NCBI GenBank assembly: GCA_020426515.1
Contig: JAGQPW010000034.1
Coordinates: 4,373 to 43,426, forward strand
Source of the DNA: Planctomycetaceae bacterium
Lineage (GTDB): Bacteria > Planctomycetota > Planctomycetia > Planctomycetales > Planctomycetaceae
DNA: 39,054 nucleotides
Direction: 5' to 3'
The notes under the pieces are model-generated. The model worked only from the letters and a program-made list of their open reading frames with translations, was not told the origin of the DNA and searched no databases. Below are positions 2,746 to 39,054 of the stretch, in pieces. A program made the translations under genes and the position numbers. Each line of letters begins with the position of its first letter. Position 1 is the stretch's first letter.

Positions 2746-3879
2746 TTAACGCCAGCCGAGTGCCCGGATGGATTCACCGGGAGCATGCTCGCCGAAGCAA
2801 ATTCCCAATGCTCTTGCGGCTTGAATCGCTGATCCATCGCGTGGGACCTGGGAGAGCTTTCCCACGGCTACGCGAATGGGGACGCTGCTGATTTCCGGAG
2901 GATGGTAGCAGACCATTTCGCCGAATCGTCGTTGCACAACCAGCCGCACGGCATGGGCTCCATATTGTGTGGCGAGCATGCGGTCGAAATATGTGGGAGG
3001 TCCTCCGCGCTGCAGGTGGCCAAGCACCACAGAGCGAACTTCCCGCTGCAGGCGATGTTCGATTTCCCGGGCGACCACGTCGCCGATTCCGCCGAGATGA
3101 ACCTGAGCCATGGCCGGACCGGAAGGCTCTCCAATAGTCACCAGGTTGCCTCCGGGAAGTTGGGCTCCCTCGGCAACGACCACGATTGAGAATCGCTTGC
3201 CATCCCGGTCCCGTTCCTCGATTTTCCGGCAGACGTTTTCGAACGTCCACGGGATTTCCGGAAGGAGGATGACGCTCGCTCCGCCCGAAATACCGGCGTG
3301 CAGGGCGATCCAGCCAGCGTGACGGCCCATAACTTCGACCACCATCACCCGTTCATGACTGATTGCCGTGGTGTACAGTCGATCGATGGCGTCGGTCGCA
3401 CAGGCCACGGCACTGTCGAATCCGAACGAGAAGGCCGTTGAGGAGAGGTCGTTGTCGATCGTTTTGGGAACACCAACCACCGGCAGCCCGGCTTCTTCAA
3501 ACTGTTCGGCGACGGCCAGTGATCCATCGCCTCCAACACAGATCAGTGCTTCCAGTCGCAGGTCTTTGTAGGTCTGTCGAACCTTGTCGATCAACCTGGG
3601 ATCAAGGTCAATTCGCTCAGATACGCCACGACGAGCACTGAAGTGGCCCTTGTTGGTTGAGCCGAGAATGGTTCCACCACGCGCAATGATGCCGAGCGTG
3701 TTCTTGCGATCCAGGAACATGTAGTCCGGAGGATCGATCAGGCCTTCGTAGCCACGTTTGAATCCAACGACTTCGTATCCAAAGCGAGTGGACGCTTTGA
3801 CCACACTGCGGATGACGGCATTCAACCCAGGGCAGTCCCCGCCGGAAGTCAAAATTCCAACACGTGGCAGTTCACTCAC
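2746..3879 (-). CDS. pfkA: 6-phosphofructokinase, group III (mixed-substrate) type
   Basis: This enzyme phosphorylates fructose 6-phosphate in glycolysis. The 377-residue protein has GGDCPG at 13-18, GGDGS at 116-120, PKTIDND at 138-144 with the catalytic Asp142, and MGRHAGW at 184-190. At the two positions that separate ATP and pyrophosphate enzymes it has Gly119 (E. coli Gly104) and Lys139 (E. coli Gly124). That combination belongs to the mixed-substrate group, so the phosphoryl donor cannot be settled from sequence. The start is taken as the second of two adjacent GTG codons because AGGAG lies seven bases before it. It converges on arsM with a 21-base gap. Confidence 0.9.
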   Translation of the reverse strand: MSELPRVGILTSGGDCPGLNAVIRSVVKASTRFGYEVVGFKRGYEGLIDPPDYMFLDRKNTLGIIARGGTILGSTNKGHFSARRGVSERIDLDPRLIDKVRQTYKDLRLEALICVGGDGSLAVAEQFEEAGLPVVGVPKTIDNDLSSTAFSFGFDSAVACATDAIDRLYTTAISHERVMVVEVMGRHAGWIALHAGISGGASVILLPEIPWTFENVCRKIEERDRDGKRFSIVVVAEGAQLPGGNLVTIGEPSGPAMAQVHLGGIGDVVAREIEHRLQREVRSVVLGHLQRGGPPTYFDRMLATQYGAHAVRLVVQRRFGEMVCYHPPEISSVPIRVAVGKLSQVPRDGSAIQAARALGICFGEHAPGESIRALGWR

Positions 3880-3971
3880 CACTGCACTCCTGAAGATGGG
3901 CCAAAAGAATACGGACCGAATGGAACCGTGAGGGGGAGGCGTTCGAATCAAGAAGACCAGTTCGCCGAATT

Positions 3972-31923: not shown

Positions 31924-32757
31924 CCGTGTTTCTCCTGATTGACTCTCAGGCCACCCGGAGGACTTCTGCGGGGTGACTCGACAATCCCTGTTGAACAATT
32001 GGTCAATCACCAGCAAATCGACATCCCGTCGAAAATTCACTGCTGAATAGGGGCTGGTATCGGATTTCAAATTCTGGAGCAAGAGCAATTCCCGAGATTG
32101 CCCCGGTTCCGGTTGGTCAATCGCGAGCCGGAACGCAGAAGAAAAGCCGAAAAGCCGAGGAAAAACGTTGTGGTCCCGGGATATCAGCAGGCAGGGCCAA
32201 ACGGCCCCGGGGGAGAGATTTCCGATCGGGAGTGTGCAGGCACTGCGTGACACGCGTCTTTGCAGTCCACCCGAACGAACGCCAGTGGAGGGCTGACGCA
32301 GCTGATTCACCTTGCTGCCAAACGCTGGTGACTTCGGCATAGCGATTCCACGATACAGGCAATGCATGCCTTTCGAGCCAGACGTCCTCGCCACAGAGAA
32401 GGCTCGGGCTAGACCAACGCCTCGATGCACAACGTATCTGGGACCCCTAACGTAACGCCATCTTGCGCAACTCCGAATCCCAACATGGTCGCCATGAGCG
32501 AGTGAATGAGGCACACCGCGAGAACGCAGCCAACCCCAAATCAAAGCTCACCCGCACGCAGTGAAATGGTCGCACACGGACCAGAATACCGCCGCGAAAC
32601 GCAGGGAAAACGCGATTTCTCGAAGGGGTGGCCTTACAGCCGGCCTGAAATCAACTGCGAGTGTAGTCGGCTGTGCGGCCGGCCTCGATTCTTGGTTTCG
32701 CTGCGTCTGGCTGTCGAGTCGCTTCCGGCTCAATAGCCTCTTTCAGGAAGATCGAGA
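31924..32757. other. Gene-poor boundary between core and accessory region
   Basis: This 834-base gap separates the leftward TPR gene from the first rightward accessory gene. The left part should hold the TPR promoter. I could not recognise a protein, tRNA or repeat. From about 32,640 the hexamer GCCGGC begins to recur as in the accessory region, so the junction probably lies inside this gap. No attachment site can be proven because the other element end is outside the window. Confidence 0.5.
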
Positions 32758-33048
32758 ATGGTTGCAGGAAATAACGAACAGCCAAACATTTTGCTCACCC
32801 GGATTGCGGTATCCCTGGAGCGAATCGCGGAAGCGATGAACAGCAACGGCAAACGGGCGAATTGTACGCGGGAAGAACGCGCGTTACTCGCCCTGGCCGG
32901 CCAGCAAAAGCCGACACTTACCAGCGTTGCGAAAGCGGCCGGCGTCGATCGGCGAACACTGAAGAAGCTGCCGAAGTTCATGGCGGCGCTCGACCTCGCC
33001 AACGGAGGGCAGCCACGCCGGGTAAAGTTCAGCGATTGCACGGAATGA
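32758..33048 (+). CDS. Small helix-turn-helix protein
   Basis: This 96-residue protein has a likely helix-turn-helix near residues 54-72 (LTSVAKAAGVDRRTLKKL). The basic N-terminal half includes LLTRIAVSLERIAEAM, probably a dimerising helix. It could be a regulator or recombination accessory factor of the element. AGGAAG lies seven bases before the ATG. It is the first gene of the accessory region. The family is not recognised beyond the DNA-binding motif. Confidence 0.68.
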   Translation: MVAGNNEQPNILLTRIAVSLERIAEAMNSNGKRANCTREERALLALAGQQKPTLTSVAKAAGVDRRTLKKLPKFMAALDLANGGQPRRVKFSDCTE

Positions 33049-33114: not shown

Positions 33115-33306
33115 GTGATTGACGAACGAATCTGTTACACGTTGAAAGAATTTAAGAAGCAAACAGGAATGGGCGACGTCGGTGTCCGTGGATGCTTTAA
33201 GGCTGGCTTGCCATCGCATCACATCGGGCGGCAATCCTTCATTCTCGGCGCGGACTGGATCGCTTTTGTGCGCGGCGAACTCAAGGAGCCGGCCAAGAAG
33301 AAATGA
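33115..33306 (+). CDS. Small excisionase-like DNA-binding protein
   Basis: This 63-residue protein resembles excisionase/MerR-like winged helices, with YTLKEFKKQTGMGDVGVR followed by the wing-like HHIGRQSFILGADWIAFV. Proteins of this size and shape often control excision or early promoters in mobile elements. The start is GTG at 33115 with AAGGAA about eight bases upstream. It lies 66 bases after the previous gene on the same strand. No integrase is adjacent. Confidence 0.68.
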   Translation: MIDERICYTLKEFKKQTGMGDVGVRGCFKAGLPSHHIGRQSFILGADWIAFVRGELKEPAKKK

Positions 33307-33630
33307 CCGTTCAGCCGCGGTCGTGAACTCGGTAGAGCCCTGGAGCCGGCTGTCGGCTTCGGGGCTCCTTTGCTTGCGATGGTCCTTGCTATCTCCTGGT
33401 AACGCCGTAGTCGGCGTTGACCGTCTCTCCGGTTGTAGTACACCCGTATTTCAGCCGACGATTGCGTCGGACTCTTGTCGGCGCCTGCTGGATTGAAGCG
33501 AAATTCAGGCGATCTGTTTCGCGATTTCATTGCATCTGGCAATGTTGAAGTCACTTACGGTGTTCGATTCAAGGGATTCCAGTTCCACTATCTGGCAGTG
33601 ACGTTAAAATGCCAGTAACCCTTGGGAACC
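33307..33630 (+). other. Structured intergenic region with several hairpins
   Basis: This 324-base gap holds no credible protein but several stems. One is GGAGCC/GGCTCC at 33342-33368, followed by TTTGCTT, so possibly a terminator. A second is a perfect 7-base-pair stem AACGCCG/CGGCGTT at 33401-33418. A third is CCGACG/CGTCGG at 33455-33470, whose left arm can instead pair with GTCGGC at 33477-33482. It may encode a small RNA or a leader for the next gene; this is inference. Confidence 0.4.
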
Positions 33631-35511
33631 ATGACTGCGCAAGAACTCTTCAATCAACTGAACCAACTCGACGAGCACGTGCGAGTGGAGGCGAAAAGAG
33701 CCTCAGAGGTCGGGGCATCCGTTCTTGAAACGGTTTGCTCGCTCTCGAATGAGCCTGGGCTTGGGGGCGGCTGGATTCTACTTGGGGTCGCAAAGAAAGG
33801 GGGAGTCTTGTTCCCTGGGTTTGGCACATACGAAGTTGTTGGTGTCGATGATCCGGATAAAGTCAGCGCCGATCTCGCAAGCAAGTGTGCCAGTGAATTC
33901 AATCAGATGATTCGTCCGAAAATAGAGCCGGCAACCATCAACAACAAGACCGTGCTTTCAGTTTTTGTGCCTGAACTTCCTGATTCACAGAAGCCAGTCT
34001 TCCTGAAAAAGCGTGGTCTGCCAAGGGGGGCCTACAGGCGAATTGGGAGTTCAGATCAACACTGCACGGAAGATGATCTGACTACCTTCTATCAGTCGCG
34101 TCAGGGTGAGACTTTTGACGGCGGGATCGTCAGTGGAGCGAACCTGACTCACATTGATCCGGCAGCAGTCAGGGAATACAGAAAAAGCCGAGCCGAGATC
34201 AACCCCGATGCTGAGGAGTTGAGATGGGATGACGCAGAACTCATGGAAGCGCTTGGAGCCGCTAAAGTTAGTGACGGGGGACTTACACCAACTGTCGCGG
34301 GCATCCTCCTTTTTGGTACATCTGCCGCATTGCGTCGGTTCTTCCCGATGACCCGAGTGGACTACATCCGTGTTCCCGGTCGCGAATGGGTTAAAGACCC
34401 CGACCACCGATTCGACACGGTAGAGATTCGGTCACCTTTGATTCGAGCCGTACGGAGAGCGTTCAGTGCCGTTTTCGACGACCTGCCCAAAGCTTTCGCG
34501 CTTCCGCCCGGACAAGTCGAAAGAACAGACGACCCAGCCATCCCTAGTCGTGTTATCCGGGAAGCTATCGTGAACGCAGTGATGCACAGGTCATACCGGG
34601 TCAGCGGCCCAATCCAGATCATCCGTTATCAAAACAGGCTCGAAATCAGGAATCCGGGTCACTCCCTTAAATCAGAGGATCGCTTGGGTGACCCCGGATC
34701 AATTCTAAGGAATCCCCTGGTCGCCGCCGCTCTCCATGAAACAAATTTGGCTGAAACCAAGGGGAGTGGTATTCGCGTAATGCGGGAGTTGATGGATCAA
34801 GTGGGCCTGACGCCGCCTACATTTGAATCCGATCGCGATGGCGATCAATTCATTGTGACGATGCTTTTTCACCACTTCCTGTCCCCTGAAGACTGGGAGT
34901 GGCTGCGGAGGTTTTCTGAGCACGCACTGTCCGACGAGGAGGCACGTGCGCTCGTCTTTGTTCGTGAAACGGGGGCAATCAACAACCTTGCGTATCGAGA
35001 CTTGAACAAAGTGGACACTCTTAACGCAAGTAGCCATCTTCGCCGTCTCCGTGACCGTGGCTTACTGGAGATGAGAGGAAAGGGAGCCGAGACGTATTAC
35101 GTTCCAACTCATGACCTACTCTTGGGGTGGCCGGCTTCAACGCATGGTAATTCAGGTAACCTTGCGGGCAAATCCGGTAACCTCACTGGCAAATCCGGTA
35201 ACCTTGCGGGCAAATCCGGTAACCTCACTGAAAGTGAGCGTCAGGGCAATTCCTTGCTGGCTGATTTGTCTGAGGAGATCGCCTCCATAGGGAGAAAGAC
35301 GGACAAAGATACACTAATGGGCTTGATCTGTAAGGTCTGTGCTCGTAATGAGATGAGCACGTCCGAGTTGGCGAACTTGTTTCGAAAGACCCGTCAACAC
35401 ATGCTCGATTTCTACCTGACACCACTTGTCCATGAAGGTAGGCTTGTGATGACGATTCCCGACACCCCCCATCACCCTGAACAAAAGTACAGGGCGTCCG
35501 ATTTGATTTGA
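33631..35511 (+). CDS. Schlafen/AlbA_2-type ATP-binding protein
   Basis: This is a 626-residue protein of the COG2865-like family. An N-terminal AlbA_2 (Schlafen-like) domain, about residues 1-130, contains GGGWILLGV and KKRGLPRGAYRRIGS. A GHKL-type ATP-binding domain has VIREAIVNAVMH (Asn315) and GSGIRVMREL (Gly378). A winged-helix segment (NASSHLRRLRDRGLLEM) and a C-terminal winged-helix-like part (STSELANLFRKTRQHML) follow. Between them a linker of alternating GNLAGKS and GNLTGKS units is encoded by 21-base repeats. Such proteins are often called transcriptional regulators, and some belong to phage-defence loci. Here it may serve the element or protect it. The ATG at 33631 has only GGGA nearby. 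Confidence 0.82.
   Translation: MTAQELFNQLNQLDEHVRVEAKRASEVGASVLETVCSLSNEPGLGGGWILLGVAKKGGVLFPGFGTYEVVGVDDPDKVSADLASKCASEFNQMIRPKIEPATINNKTVLSVFVPELPDSQKPVFLKKRGLPRGAYRRIGSSDQHCTEDDLTTFYQSRQGETFDGGIVSGANLTHIDPAAVREYRKSRAEINPDAEELRWDDAELMEALGAAKVSDGGLTPTVAGILLFGTSAALRRFFPMTRVDYIRVPGREWVKDPDHRFDTVEIRSPLIRAVRRAFSAVFDDLPKAFALPPGQVERTDDPAIPSRVIREAIVNAVMHRSYRVSGPIQIIRYQNRLEIRNPGHSLKSEDRLGDPGSILRNPLVAAALHETNLAETKGSGIRVMRELMDQVGLTPPTFESDRDGDQFIVTMLFHHFLSPEDWEWLRRFSEHALSDEEARALVFVRETGAINNLAYRDLNKVDTLNASSHLRRLRDRGLLEMRGKGAETYYVPTHDLLLGWPASTHGNSGNLAGKSGNLTGKSGNLAGKSGNLTESERQGNSLLADLSEEIASIGRKTDKDTLMGLICKVCARNEMSTSELANLFRKTRQHMLDFYLTPLVHEGRLVMTIPDTPHHPEQKYRASDLI
35146..35230 (+). repeat. In-frame 21-base tandem repeat
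   Basis: Three complete 21-base units start with GGTAAC at 35155, 35176 and 35197, and a partial one starts at 35218. Units alternate between CTTGCGGGC and CTCACTGGC centres, so the true period is 42 bases. The array encodes a flexible Gly/Asn/Lys/Ser linker and could change length by slippage without a frameshift. Confidence 0.95.
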
Positions 35512-36210
35512 GGTGTTCCAAACCCGCCTCAGTGGTTTTCGTGCCTGGACTTCAGCCGGCGTAAAAATCAAAACGGCTCATTGAAATCTCAATTGAATTG
35601 GAAAACTGAGACGCCCACGGCCGGCCAGAATTCAAAGTTCAAGTTGATTTCAGTAGTCGCGTTTGAAATCTGGCGACGCTGCAAGTTGAGAAAGAGAATA
35701 GAGATAGAGTAAGTATATATATTGATTTCTATTTTCATTCTCTTCACGTTCCTCTCTCTTCTCGCCCCCTTGCCTCCCCTTCCTGCGGATTCCTGTATGC
35801 CCCCCGTTGATTTCAAGAACTCTCAAAAGACGCAATGTCTCCTGCTCGCGCTTGCGATCCCCCCTTGGCTTTTGGCCGCCCTCGCCGGACGCAAAGGTAC
35901 TTCCTGTAAGTGTTTAAAGAACAGAGCAACGGAAGCCCGCCATTGCGTAGGTTTTTATACATTCCGACGGCGCCGGCTTCGCGGGGTGTCGTCAGTGTGA
36001 TATCTCAAGGCTATTTCTGAGCCAATTTCGCCGGATTTCATCGGTTTCCAACCGTGCTTCACTGTCTGCGAGCCCGTTTCGGCTTACTTCACTGGGGTTG
36101 GCTGGATTATTTCGGAAATCTCAAGGGATTTCTGGCCTGATTTGTAAAAAAACAGGCCATGTCGCCAGTGATTATAGATGGCGACTGTTTTTTCGAATCA
36201 GCGAGGATGA
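35512..36210. other. Gene-free region with purine/pyrimidine switch
   Basis: This 699-base gap contains a purine-rich tract (35685-35713), an AT-rich core (TATATATATTGA near 35714-35725) and a long pyrimidine tract (35727-35783). Frames of 60-90 codons cross it, but their residues simply mirror the low-complexity bases, so I call no gene. Two hairpins lie at its right end. Possible roles are a replication origin, a transcription boundary or a recombination scar. Confidence 0.5.
36134..36193 (+). terminator. Tandem hairpins ending in a terminator before the tail-module genes
   Basis: A first stem GGCCTG/CAGGCC (36134-36158) has an A-rich loop. A second stem GTCGCCA/TGGCGAC (36161-36185, 11-base loop) is followed by TGTTTTTTC. 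The T run ends only 17 bases before the next start codon. This placement suggests either an attenuator in the leader or a terminator insulating the tail-module operon. Confidence 0.72.
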
Positions 36211-36522
36211 ATGACTGAGTCAATGGTGTGCGGCCCTGGGTTCTTCCAGCGGCCATTCTCGGCGCAGGAGGTGGCCGACCTTTTGGGCATCGGTGTCGAG
36301 GCGGTACACGCTGGAGCTCGCGACGGACAGATACCGTCAATTTTGATCGGTCGAAAAAAGCGACTGTTTCCCAGACTGCTGATTGCCAAGTTGCTTGACG
36401 GCCGCTTCCATCAACCGGCCGCGACTCCAGAGCCCACCAACCATCCCGGCGGCGACGGCGGCGTGATTTTCTCCAATCCTGAAGCTCCACAGAACGCGGG
36501 GTTGAATGCCGGCAGTAATTAA
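36211..36522 (+). CDS. Excisionase/MerR-like helix-turn-helix protein
   Basis: This 103-residue protein has an excisionase-like DNA-binding domain near 12-62 (FSAQEVADLLGIGVEAV, then IPSILIGRKKRLFPRLL). Its proline- and glycine-rich tail lacks motifs. It is the first gene after the attenuator-like hairpins and overlaps the protease gene by 17 bases, so it probably leads the operon. GAGGA lies three bases before the ATG at 36211, which is close; ATG at 36223 is an alternative. It may regulate the tail module rather than excision. Confidence 0.7.
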   Translation: MTESMVCGPGFFQRPFSAQEVADLLGIGVEAVHAGARDGQIPSILIGRKKRLFPRLLIAKLLDGRFHQPAATPEPTNHPGGDGGVIFSNPEAPQNAGLNAGSN

Positions 36523-37222
36523 CATCGAAGGACCGATCACCGAACTCACGCCGGTTGCGATCCGCGAAGCCCTGGCGGCTGAACCTGCCGGCGACATCGT
36601 CGTGAATTTGAATAGTCAAGGCGGTAACGCGTTCGCCGGCTTCGCGGCCTTCAATCTGTTGAAGCAATCCGGCCGGCCCGTCGTGGTCAACGTGCTGGGC
36701 GTCGCGGCTTCCGCGGCGGCTCCGATCCTGGCTGCGGCCCGGACGGTTACGGCTGCGAAGAACGCGTCGATCATGATCCATGAGCCGTCAATTCAGACCA
36801 ACGGCGACGCGACGGCACACGCCAACAATTCGAAGCTCTTGTCCGGGCTCCGCGACTCTTTCGTTGAATCGCTCGCGGCCAAGATGAACTGGACTCCCGA
36901 CAAGATTTCGTCAGCACTCAAGGCGACGACTTGGTTTACCGCTTCAGAAGCTCACGCCGCGGGACTGGTCAACGAAATTATCGATACGGCGGCAATTCCA
37001 CTGGCATGTTCTGCGGTGGAATTCGATGTCCCTTTCGCGGCGGCTGGGCTTCTGAAGCCGGCGATAACCGGCCTGGACGCCTTATTCACGCCGCGACGAT
37101 CGCCCGTCGCGAAAGTGATTCTGTCGGCAAGTGTCGCGACTGAGTTCAAGCCGACCGTAACAACCGCCAGCGATGAAGATGCCCCGGAGGCGTTCGCCGC
37201 GATGTTCACGCCGCTGAAGTGA
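36506..37222 (+). CDS. ClpP-like phage maturation protease
   Basis: This 238-residue protein of the ClpP/S14 fold is of the kind used by phages to process capsid proteins. It has the substrate-groove strand IVVNLNSQGGNAFAG, the nucleophile segment GVAASAAAPILAA (Ser69) and IMIHEPS (His92). In TTWFTASEAHAAGLVNEI, the position of the catalytic acid reads Thr (141 or 142) where Asp or Glu is usual. Activity is therefore uncertain, though Ser-His dyads can work. The alignment is mine by eye. The C-terminal 70 residues are not recognised. It overlaps the gene before it. Confidence 0.82.
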   Translation: MPAVINIEGPITELTPVAIREALAAEPAGDIVVNLNSQGGNAFAGFAAFNLLKQSGRPVVVNVLGVAASAAAPILAAARTVTAAKNASIMIHEPSIQTNGDATAHANNSKLLSGLRDSFVESLAAKMNWTPDKISSALKATTWFTASEAHAAGLVNEIIDTAAIPLACSAVEFDVPFAAAGLLKPAITGLDALFTPRRSPVAKVILSASVATEFKPTVTTASDEDAPEAFAAMFTPLK

Positions 37223-37263
37223 TCGGCCGGTTCACTCTCCAAAAAATCTCAAACAAGGAATTA

Positions 37264-37719
37264 ATGCCAACCACATTTTTCACGGACCTCGCCGGCCGCG
37301 AATGGGACACACGATTCCGATTCTCCAACGTCCGCAACATCGCCAAATCCACCGGCGTGACACTTCCCGACTTAATCCATCCCGGCTCTGAATCGTTAGG
37401 CCTGATTGCGGATCAAGCCACGTTTTTTGACGTCTTATGGCTTCTACTGGCCCAGCAAGCCACGGCAACCGGCGTCGATGAAAACTCGTTCGCCGAAGCG
37501 ATGGACGGAGCGACATTTGAAGCCGCCTTCGACGCCCTTGTCGAAGCTGCGATTCTGCACGCTCCTGCTCATCAGACGGCGAGACTTCGCGCAGCAGTCA
37601 CCGAAGTCCGAAAGGCTCAAGAACTGGGGCTTCAACTCGCATGCGATCTGGTCTCTCAATCACTGGCTGACGTTGAAGCCAAGTTCGCTGCACTCCAACC
37701 ACGAATTTCGGGAGGTTAA
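37264..37719 (+). CDS. Small tail-assembly-chaperone-like protein
   Basis: This 151-residue protein begins with FFTDLAGREWDTRFRF and VRNIAKSTGVTLPDL, a pattern seen in proteins that precede the tape measure gene in tailed phages. The rest is helical and acidic. The role as a tail chaperone is inferred mainly from position: it overlaps the tape measure gene as TAATG. AAGGA lies four bases before the ATG at 37264. I saw no slippery site for the frameshift that lengthens some tail chaperones. Confidence 0.62.
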   Translation: MPTTFFTDLAGREWDTRFRFSNVRNIAKSTGVTLPDLIHPGSESLGLIADQATFFDVLWLLLAQQATATGVDENSFAEAMDGATFEAAFDALVEAAILHAPAHQTARLRAAVTEVRKAQELGLQLACDLVSQSLADVEAKFAALQPRISGG

Positions 37720-39054
37720 TGCCATCGAAACGAAGTCTAGAAGCCGGTAAAGCGCACGTCGCGTTGTGGCTCGACGATTCCGCGTTGAAACGCGGTTTGA
37801 AAGGGCTGCAAAGCCGTTTCCAGACGCTCGCGAATACGTCGAAGGTTTACGGGACGGCGTTCGCGACGGCCGGCGCTGTCATAGCGGCCCCCTACATCTA
37901 CGCAACCCGGGTGTTGGCGAACTATGACGACGCAATCCGGGCAACTGCCGCGGTCTCGCAAGCCGACCCGGCTGGATTCGCTCGCCTGGACAAGCTTGCC
38001 CGCGAGTTGGGAGCGTCGACCAGTTACACGGCGGCCGAAGTCGCAAACCTGATGACGGAACTGGCTCGCGCCGGTTTCAACGTTCCTCAGATCGAGGACA
38101 TGACCGGAAGCGTCCTGGCCCTGGCTCGCGCTACCGGAACCGATGCCGCAATCTCTGCCGGCATCATGGCGGCCACAATCCGCCAATACGGATTGGAAGC
38201 CGAAGACGCCGCGAGGGTGTCAGACCTGCTGACGGCGGCCGCTAATAGCTCATTCAACACGGTCGAGGGTTTGGGCGAGTCGCTGAAATACGCCGGCCCG
38301 ATTGCGGCTCAATTGAACATGAGCCTGGAAGACACGCTCGCCGTTCTCGGTGCGCTCGGCAATGCCGGGATTCAGGGGAGCGAAGCCGGGACGGCTGTTC
38401 GCCGCTTGTCCGTCATTACGGCGACCGAAGCCGATTCGATGGCGAAGATTTTCGGCGTTTCGTTCCGCGACATGAACGGCGAGGCGTTGCCGCTGATCGA
38501 CACCATGAGCCGCATTTCCGAAAGTATGCAAGGCGATTCAGCCGGCACGCAAGCGGAAAAACTGAATCAGGTTTTCGGCTTGCTCGGTATTACGTCATCG
38601 GCCGTTCTGTCGTCGTCTATTTCGTCCGTCGAAAAGCTCCGCGAAGTTCTCGCGAACGCGAGCGGAACAGCACAGCGAACCGCGTCCGAAATGGATGCCG
38701 GAATTGGCGGATCACTGCGGATTTTGTTGTCTGGGATCGAAGGCGTAACGCTCGCGTTTGCGGACGCGTTCGCGCCGGAACTGCAACAGGTCATCAAGTG
38801 GCTGACGACTGTTGCCGGCTCCGCTCGCGAATTCGCGACCGAAAACAAGGCGCTGATTCTGTCCGTTGCTGGCGCTGCCGCTGGGCTCGCGACACTGGCC
38901 GGCGGTTTGGCCGGCTTCGGAATGGTTTCTTCGGGGCTCGCGTCTCTGCTGGCAATTGCGTCGGCCTTGTCCGGCCCGCTTGTCGCTGTTGGCGCGGCCC
39001 TGGCTTCGGTGTACGCGGCGTCGCAACTCCTGAAGGAAAACCTGCCGGCCCTGG
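37719..39054 (+). CDS. Phage tail tape measure protein, TP901 type (partial)
   Basis: This protein would set tail length and fill the tail tube. The first 445 residues are visible; the gene continues past the right edge. It has a basic start, a region with YDDAIRATAAVSQADPAGF and LARELGASTSYTAAEVANLM, and then LARATGTDAAISAGIMAATI, the core of the TP901 family. The later GPIAAQLNMSLEDTLAVLGAL and GIQGSEAGTAVRRLS are also typical. From about residue 375 it becomes Ala/Gly-rich and hydrophobic. The ATG overlaps the previous stop, and GGAGG lies three bases upstream. Confidence 0.93.
   Translation, partial: MPSKRSLEAGKAHVALWLDDSALKRGLKGLQSRFQTLANTSKVYGTAFATAGAVIAAPYIYATRVLANYDDAIRATAAVSQADPAGFARLDKLARELGASTSYTAAEVANLMTELARAGFNVPQIEDMTGSVLALARATGTDAAISAGIMAATIRQYGLEAEDAARVSDLLTAAANSSFNTVEGLGESLKYAGPIAAQLNMSLEDTLAVLGALGNAGIQGSEAGTAVRRLSVITATEADSMAKIFGVSFRDMNGEALPLIDTMSRISESMQGDSAGTQAEKLNQVFGLLGITSSAVLSSSISSVEKLREVLANASGTAQRTASEMDAGIGGSLRILLSGIEGVTLAFADAFAPELQQVIKWLTTVAGSAREFATENKALILSVAGAAAGLATLAGGLAGFGMVSSGLASLLAIASALSGPLVAVGAALASVYAASQLLKENLPAL

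Follow-up and report, generated by a model that had tools for sequence, protein, structure and literature searches.

A ClpP-like protease gene next to tail assembly chaperone and tape measure genes at a planctomycete contig end: possible left part of a satellite-like island

The operon at the contig end and its left flank

The window, i.e., the whole stretch of DNA analysed here (39,054 nucleotides, G000:C277:4373-43426), extends to the point at which contig G000:C277 stops, position 43426, within a gene for a tape measure protein (TMP), and the sequence to the right of this gene is not readable. Its final 2.8 kb are filled by four intact, open ORFs on the same strand, encoding an HTH regulator, a ClpP-like protease, a tail assembly chaperone (TAC), and the TMP. 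These and the features to their left are, in positions of the window:

32758..33048, + strand: protein of 96 aa that probably marks where the element begins on the left; an ORF whose sole, weak match is a 122-aa protein encoded close to the G013 prophage end (7.9e-7)
33115..33306, + strand: 63-aa HTH-like (AlpA/excisionase-like) protein; an ORF with no Pfam or PHROG match
33631..35511, + strand: AlbA_2 / HATPase_c_4 / Fic-like C protein of 626 aa (Pfam); a longer TTG start at 33622 is possible
35512..36210, no strand: AT-richer spacer of 699 nt (GC 0.49) without a convincing gene
36211..36522, + strand: HTH_17 regulator of 103 aa (Pfam HTH_17 at 3.6e-5, slightly under the curated cut-off; phrog_66 excisionase/regulator, 7e-4)
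36506..37222, + strand: ClpP-like (S14) protease of the head-maturation type, 238 aa (CLP_protease, 1.9e-26; phrog_94 head maturation protease, 2.8e-41)
37264..37719, + strand: TAC, 151 aa from ATG (homologs in relatives that likewise precede the TMP; model with a weak fold match)
37719..39053, + strand: N-terminal 445 residues of the TMP, cut by the contig end (PhageMin_Tail, 1e-44; phrog_1533, 1.6e-70)

The HTH and ClpP genes overlap by 17 nt, the TAC and TMP genes overlap in the motif TAATG, and the start of the TAC gene is preceded by AAGGA, a ribosome-binding-like motif; judged by their sequence, the four ORFs appear to be translationally coupled. The order regulator, ClpP-like protease, small chaperone-like protein, and tape measure, as given in the first-pass annotation, is upheld by the ORFs, the Pfam/PHROG matches, homology, and the predicted model. 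The same annotation placed the protease 41 bases from the next gene, with no room for degraded copies between them, and the distance is confirmed: the protease stop at 37222 and the TAC ATG at 37264 leave a gap of 41 nt. No head, neck, or tube gene was found upstream of TAC-TMP in the window with Pfam/PHROG and relative-based profiles, and searches of its spacers for remnants of head genes or an integrase gave only chance-level matches. In the readable part of the element, which ends inside the TMP gene, integrase, primase, small terminase (TerS), capsid, portal, and large terminase (TerL) genes are all absent.

Within the left flank, the 63-aa and 96-aa proteins have a mobile-element flavour, and host-like genes lie further left. 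A comparison of 32341-32760 with the sequence beyond 33300 gave no attachment-site repeat of 14 nt or longer. The AlbA_2 gene contains a 21-nt tandem repeat at 35145-35228, translated into alternating GNLAGKS and GNLTGKS.

In the ClpP-like protease the catalytic residues S69 and H92 are invariant (alignment A2), and the third catalytic position is occupied by Asn (GLVNEI); some homologs have Asp there, and the column is variable among the phage homologs. The nearest relative, 38% identical, is the protease of a G121-type prophage. The genome and viral collections searched contain no relative above about 41%, and the sequenced phages yielded one weak partial match.

The 151-aa protein has no match in Pfam or PHROG, nor in the PDB by either sequence or fold searches. 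It has homologs in dozens of planctomycete prophages, where they are encoded directly ahead of the TMP, and its predicted model (pLDDT 92.7) weakly resembles viral tail assembly chaperones (Foldseek against BFVD; best probability 0.97-1.0, with E values of 0.008-0.3 and none below 0.001). Homology, position, and this weak fold similarity together identify it as a tail assembly chaperone. Nine homologs of the TAC are encoded on a single chromosome, G516:C1, a number that points to many prophages or elements there. The TMP is nearest to that of the G013 prophage (46%), in which no ClpP-type protease was found; its relatives at 42-51% identity come from G013, IMG/VR contigs, and named planctomycetes, and Rhodopirellula, Stieleria, Roseiconus, and Pirellula are among the TMP relatives, names which suggest that the host belongs to the Pirellulaceae. 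The protease and the TMP thus have different nearest relatives, a G121-type and the G013 prophage, respectively, and both of these are ordinary prophages.

Gene order in the window, in prophages, and in the same genome

The ClpP gene was called in 57 of the 80 viral relatives examined, and in 54 of these 57 loci a portal and/or capsid gene lies no more than two genes away. In the window the protease gene adjoins those of the HTH regulator and the TAC, not portal and major capsid genes as in the head module of the HK97/lambda type. Among the 119 TMP loci counted, i.e., those with at least three readable co-directional upstream genes, a tube gene lies at most four genes upstream of the TMP in 104, with the reservation that the genes of the relatives were called by a simple codon-usage caller, making short genes approximate, and that the profiles built for the analysis may have overlooked portal or tube genes that are divergent. 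A ClpP gene lies within the same distance in only two of the 119, the window and contig G017:C198. In relatives with a readable upstream region, neck and tube genes precede TAC-TMP, and terminase, portal, and capsid genes precede those where the locus reaches so far. Judging from the neighbourhoods of the relatives compared, the usual neighbours are therefore absent on both sides of the protease gene and to the left of TAC-TMP, and the order found in the window is exceptional, not a common variant. The absence of head-completion, capsid, and tail-tube genes between protease and TMP, pointed out in the first-pass annotation, is accordingly confirmed.

G017:C198, a 6.4-kb contig of another genome of the same family, is open at both ends and carries ClpP, then TAC and TMP genes, with no head or tube genes between them. 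It differs from the window in that the interval also contains a second TAC-like gene and one for a 191-aa protein, and its TMP is only about 23% identical. The two tail-chaperone-like genes stand in tandem before the TMP gene, at 3134-3938 (L068). The expectation that other planctomycete genomes would share the order is thus borne out by a comparable arrangement in this contig and by no other relative.

The planctomycete prophages of the G013 and G005 types encode TMPs and TACs homologous to those of the window. Unlike the window, they carry TerL, portal, capsid, neck, and tube genes before TAC-TMP, and the ClpP-like protease gene that the G005 prophage also possesses is located between portal and capsid genes. 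The possibility that close relatives would turn out to be ordinary prophages therefore holds for ClpP and TMP taken singly, but none of these relatives has the order of the window. In G005:C1 the whole prophage occurs twice in tandem, at about 193300-260000 (L024-L027), the copies being 36168 nt apart; each contains an integrase of its own, a complete head module, and a complete tail module. Elsewhere, in L067 (G158:C285) and L071 (G159:C94), a 224-aa ClpP-like protease is encoded near an integrase; it belongs to a small, conserved group of genes that includes neither portal nor capsid.

The other phage genes of the genome under study lie on three short contigs, with TerL and the portal start on C57, neck genes on C168, and the TMP end with tail genes on C121 (L131, L170, and L132). 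They constitute an ordinary prophage of the G117/G120 type, to which C168 is about 88% identical at three genes and the TMP end on C121 75% identical. A 380-aa gene on the opposite strand lies between two of its neck genes. C121 was considered as the right half of the TMP of the window and rejected: it belongs to this second prophage, since its TMP end is 75% identical to the G117 TMP and the TMP of the window only 31%. On account of the latter value, the window probably represents a second element, different from this prophage. The queries used revealed no second terminase, portal, or capsid gene elsewhere in the genome, and nine of the integrase contigs of the genome contain nothing joinable as the right half of the element.

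Tape measure islands in related planctomycetes and known satellites

A survey of 170 genomes of the order for PF10145 gave 31 places. When their surroundings were read, 19 proved to be recognisable prophages, three were ambiguous, and nine, the window included, had no TerL, portal, neck, or tube gene in the stretch read. Other searches added further headless loci, namely G021:C299, G049:C57, G112:C953, and G017:C198. About ten small islands, mostly with an integrase, carry a TMP gene and have no large terminase, portal, neck, or tube gene that could be recognised, and some of them add TerS, a primase, an AlpA-type regulator, a capsid protein, or a protease. The fuller ones are found within the same family, in G061 (two), G121, G021 (two), G034, and G170; those of G112, G113, and, at the class level, G049 are less complete. 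Going by gene content, they appear to be small elements of satellite type.

The island at about 4276409-4301076 of G061:C1 encodes a primase, an excisionase-type HTH protein, an integrase, a TMP of 1117 aa, and TerS. The two islands of this single-contig genome (L352 and L353) have TMPs of the same length and different flanking genes. In G121:C1 the island at 2513198-2529304, with host genes on both sides, comprises genes for a primase, a capsid protein (PF25209), an S49 head protease, a TMP, an AlbA_2 protein, and an integrase. The G021:C91 island has integrase, primase, capsid, and TMP genes, and G034:C48 and G170:C143 carry the same TMP island in two species. G025:C2 is only a weak island, its TMP having come from the PF10145 survey and been missed by the filtered scan. 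True remnants also occur in the family, in G063 and G068; in the former (L158, G063:C1, 11667-13777) a shortened TAC and TMP lie beside a resolvase and the nuo operon, with no other phage gene.

The TMP of the window is closest to prophage and not to island TMPs, and G017:C198 is the only island locus in which ClpP accompanies TAC-TMP. Shared with G113 and G121 is the AlbA_2 gene: a homolog of the protein is encoded on the TMP contig of G113 (6.2e-15) and another AlbA_2 protein in the TMP island of G121. The HTH proteins of the window show weak similarity to those of the G121 and G061 islands (E 0.006 and 0.016), and the only match of the 63-aa protein among the compared loci is a weak one, to a 69-aa protein of the G121 island (E 0.006). 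The suggested kinship of window and islands thus rests on a shared logic, the AlbA_2 gene, and weak HTH similarity, not on close homology.

A satellite with its own tape measure is a kind of element already described, in 2026. In Vibrio cholerae, PLE satellites bring a TAC and a TMP of their own, to which PLE11 adds a baseplate hub; in PLE11 particles the satellite TMP is combined with helper tube and capsid, and deletion of tmp lowers transfer by 96-99.9% (PMC12987554). PLEs were called the first satellites known to place their own tape measure in chimeric tails, and putative tmp genes were noted in some other satellites, including some cf-PICIs (PMC12987554, Extended Data Fig. 10). With TAC and TMP genes and no tube genes beside them, PLE1, PLE4, and PLE11 are the closest characterised parallel to the window; they are mobile elements, as the locus in the window may be, and share their hosts with tailed phages (PMC12987554). 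The likeness concerns the mode of action suggested by the gene set, not sequence homology. PLEs differ in having a baseplate hub, in being bound to phage ICP1, and in having been demonstrated experimentally (PMC12987554), and the window in its ClpP-like protease, in having no integrase in view, and in belonging to another phylum.

Like cf-PICIs, the planctomycete loci would be small elements with late virion genes, as in the G121 island with its capsid, protease, and TMP genes, whereas the readable part of the window contains no capsid, terminase, integrase, or primase gene. The TMP islands also resemble PICIs, including helper-embedded ones (PMC10111431), in their AlpA-type regulator, primase, integrase, and TerS; the resemblance is best in G061, where integrase, excisionase-type HTH, primase, and TerS, the PICI set, are all present. 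Against this set the window has only its weak HTH/AlpA-like genes and neither integrase nor primase in the readable part. It is known that PICIs can acquire late genes; those they carry are usually for capsid rather than tape measure proteins (PMC10111431). The open-licence literature searched yielded no report of tape measure satellites in Planctomycetota, of such varied gene combinations, or of a ClpP-like protease among the genes.

Possible origins of the locus

Our preferred reading, held at even odds, takes the locus for the left portion of a satellite-like island, truncated here, that carries TAC and TMP genes. It is favoured by the rarity of ClpP-TAC-TMP without head, neck, or tube genes, confined to the window and G017:C198 against 104 of 119 loci with a tube gene; by the four intact, overlapping ORFs with their AAGGA motif, compared with the shortened TAC and TMP of the G063 remnant; and by the different prophages to which ClpP and TMP are nearest. 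Also in favour are the headless TMP islands of the same family with integrase and primase, AlpA-type HTH, TerS, capsid, or protease, the AlbA_2 gene common to G113 and G121 with the weakly similar HTH proteins of G121 and G061, the PLE precedent of a TAC and TMP set without tube that builds chimeric tails (PMC12987554), and the separate prophage of the genome, which could in principle serve the element as helper. Of the three readings offered in the first-pass annotation, the satellite-like one is the best supported, through the islands of related genomes that carry integrase, primase, an AlpA-type regulator, or TerS; the evidence speaks neither for nor against a domesticated element. Counting against it are the lack of integrase, primase, and TerS in the readable part, the greater proximity of the TMP to prophage than to island TMPs, the pairing of ClpP with TAC-TMP in no island but the 6.4-kb contig G017:C198, the weakness of the HTH similarity, and the Asn at the Asp position of the protease.

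Some of the same facts suit an eroded or rearranged prophage, in which deletions on both sides of the protease (terminase and portal on one, capsid, neck, and tube on the other) left protease-TAC-TMP by chance; we consider this possible, at clearly less than balanced probability. For both TMP and ClpP the closest relatives lie in ordinary prophages, the 96-aa gene likewise has a prophage relative, an integrase is lacking from the readable part, and the G063 and G068 remnants attest to such erosion in the family. Yet both junctions would have to fall exactly between complete genes, in a tightly packed operon in which every ORF is open and whose spacers bear no head-gene traces, and ClpP and TAC/TMP are nearest to different relatives. 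A misjoin, with the ClpP end from one phage and TAC-TMP from another, is improbable. The metagenome assembly is fragmented into 530 contigs, one of which breaks inside the TMP gene, and the other prophage is split over three; GC3 falls from 0.71 in ClpP to 0.56 in TAC, but returns to 0.70 in the adjacent TMP, so the step does not mark a change of source. Moreover, no repeat of useful length was found at the junction within the 9 kb searched, no 15-mer is common to C57, C121, and the window at the relevant ends, and a comparable order recurs in G017:C198. As for the capsidless tail-like (tailocin-like) device of the first-pass annotation, tail genes without capsid genes would suit it, but the tube gene, constantly placed ahead of TAC in relatives, is missing as well, a head protease is encoded, the readable part, which ends inside the TMP gene, shows neither a sheath nor a baseplate gene, and no TMP relative found belongs to such a device; this idea is left unsupported and very improbable.

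If the locus is part of a satellite-like island, the element would supply its own TMP, TAC, and head-type protease, and a helper phage would provide capsid, portal, terminase, and tail tube. By analogy with PLE, induction of the helper would lead to expression of the HTH-ClpP-TAC-TMP operon; the satellite TAC may then hold the satellite TMP while the tube subunits of the helper assemble around it into chimeric tails of a length set by the satellite. The ClpP-like protease might process scaffold, capsid, or TMP in the particles with satellite DNA.

More broadly, it is tentatively proposed, at not quite balanced probability, that Pirellulaceae carry a widespread and hitherto undescribed kind of satellite with its own TMP as the common late gene and TAC, protease, capsid, or TerS in varied combinations. 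The window would then represent a member in which a ClpP-like head protease accompanies TAC-TMP, and which could influence the maturation of a helper's heads as well as the length of its tails. The combination of ClpP-like protease, TAC, and TMP, if true, would extend the repertoire of genes known from satellites. The islands in the single-contig genomes G061 and G121 are suitable for testing satellite control of tail length and helper exclusion. If the islands are satellites, tail piracy extends to a phylum with few studied phage systems.
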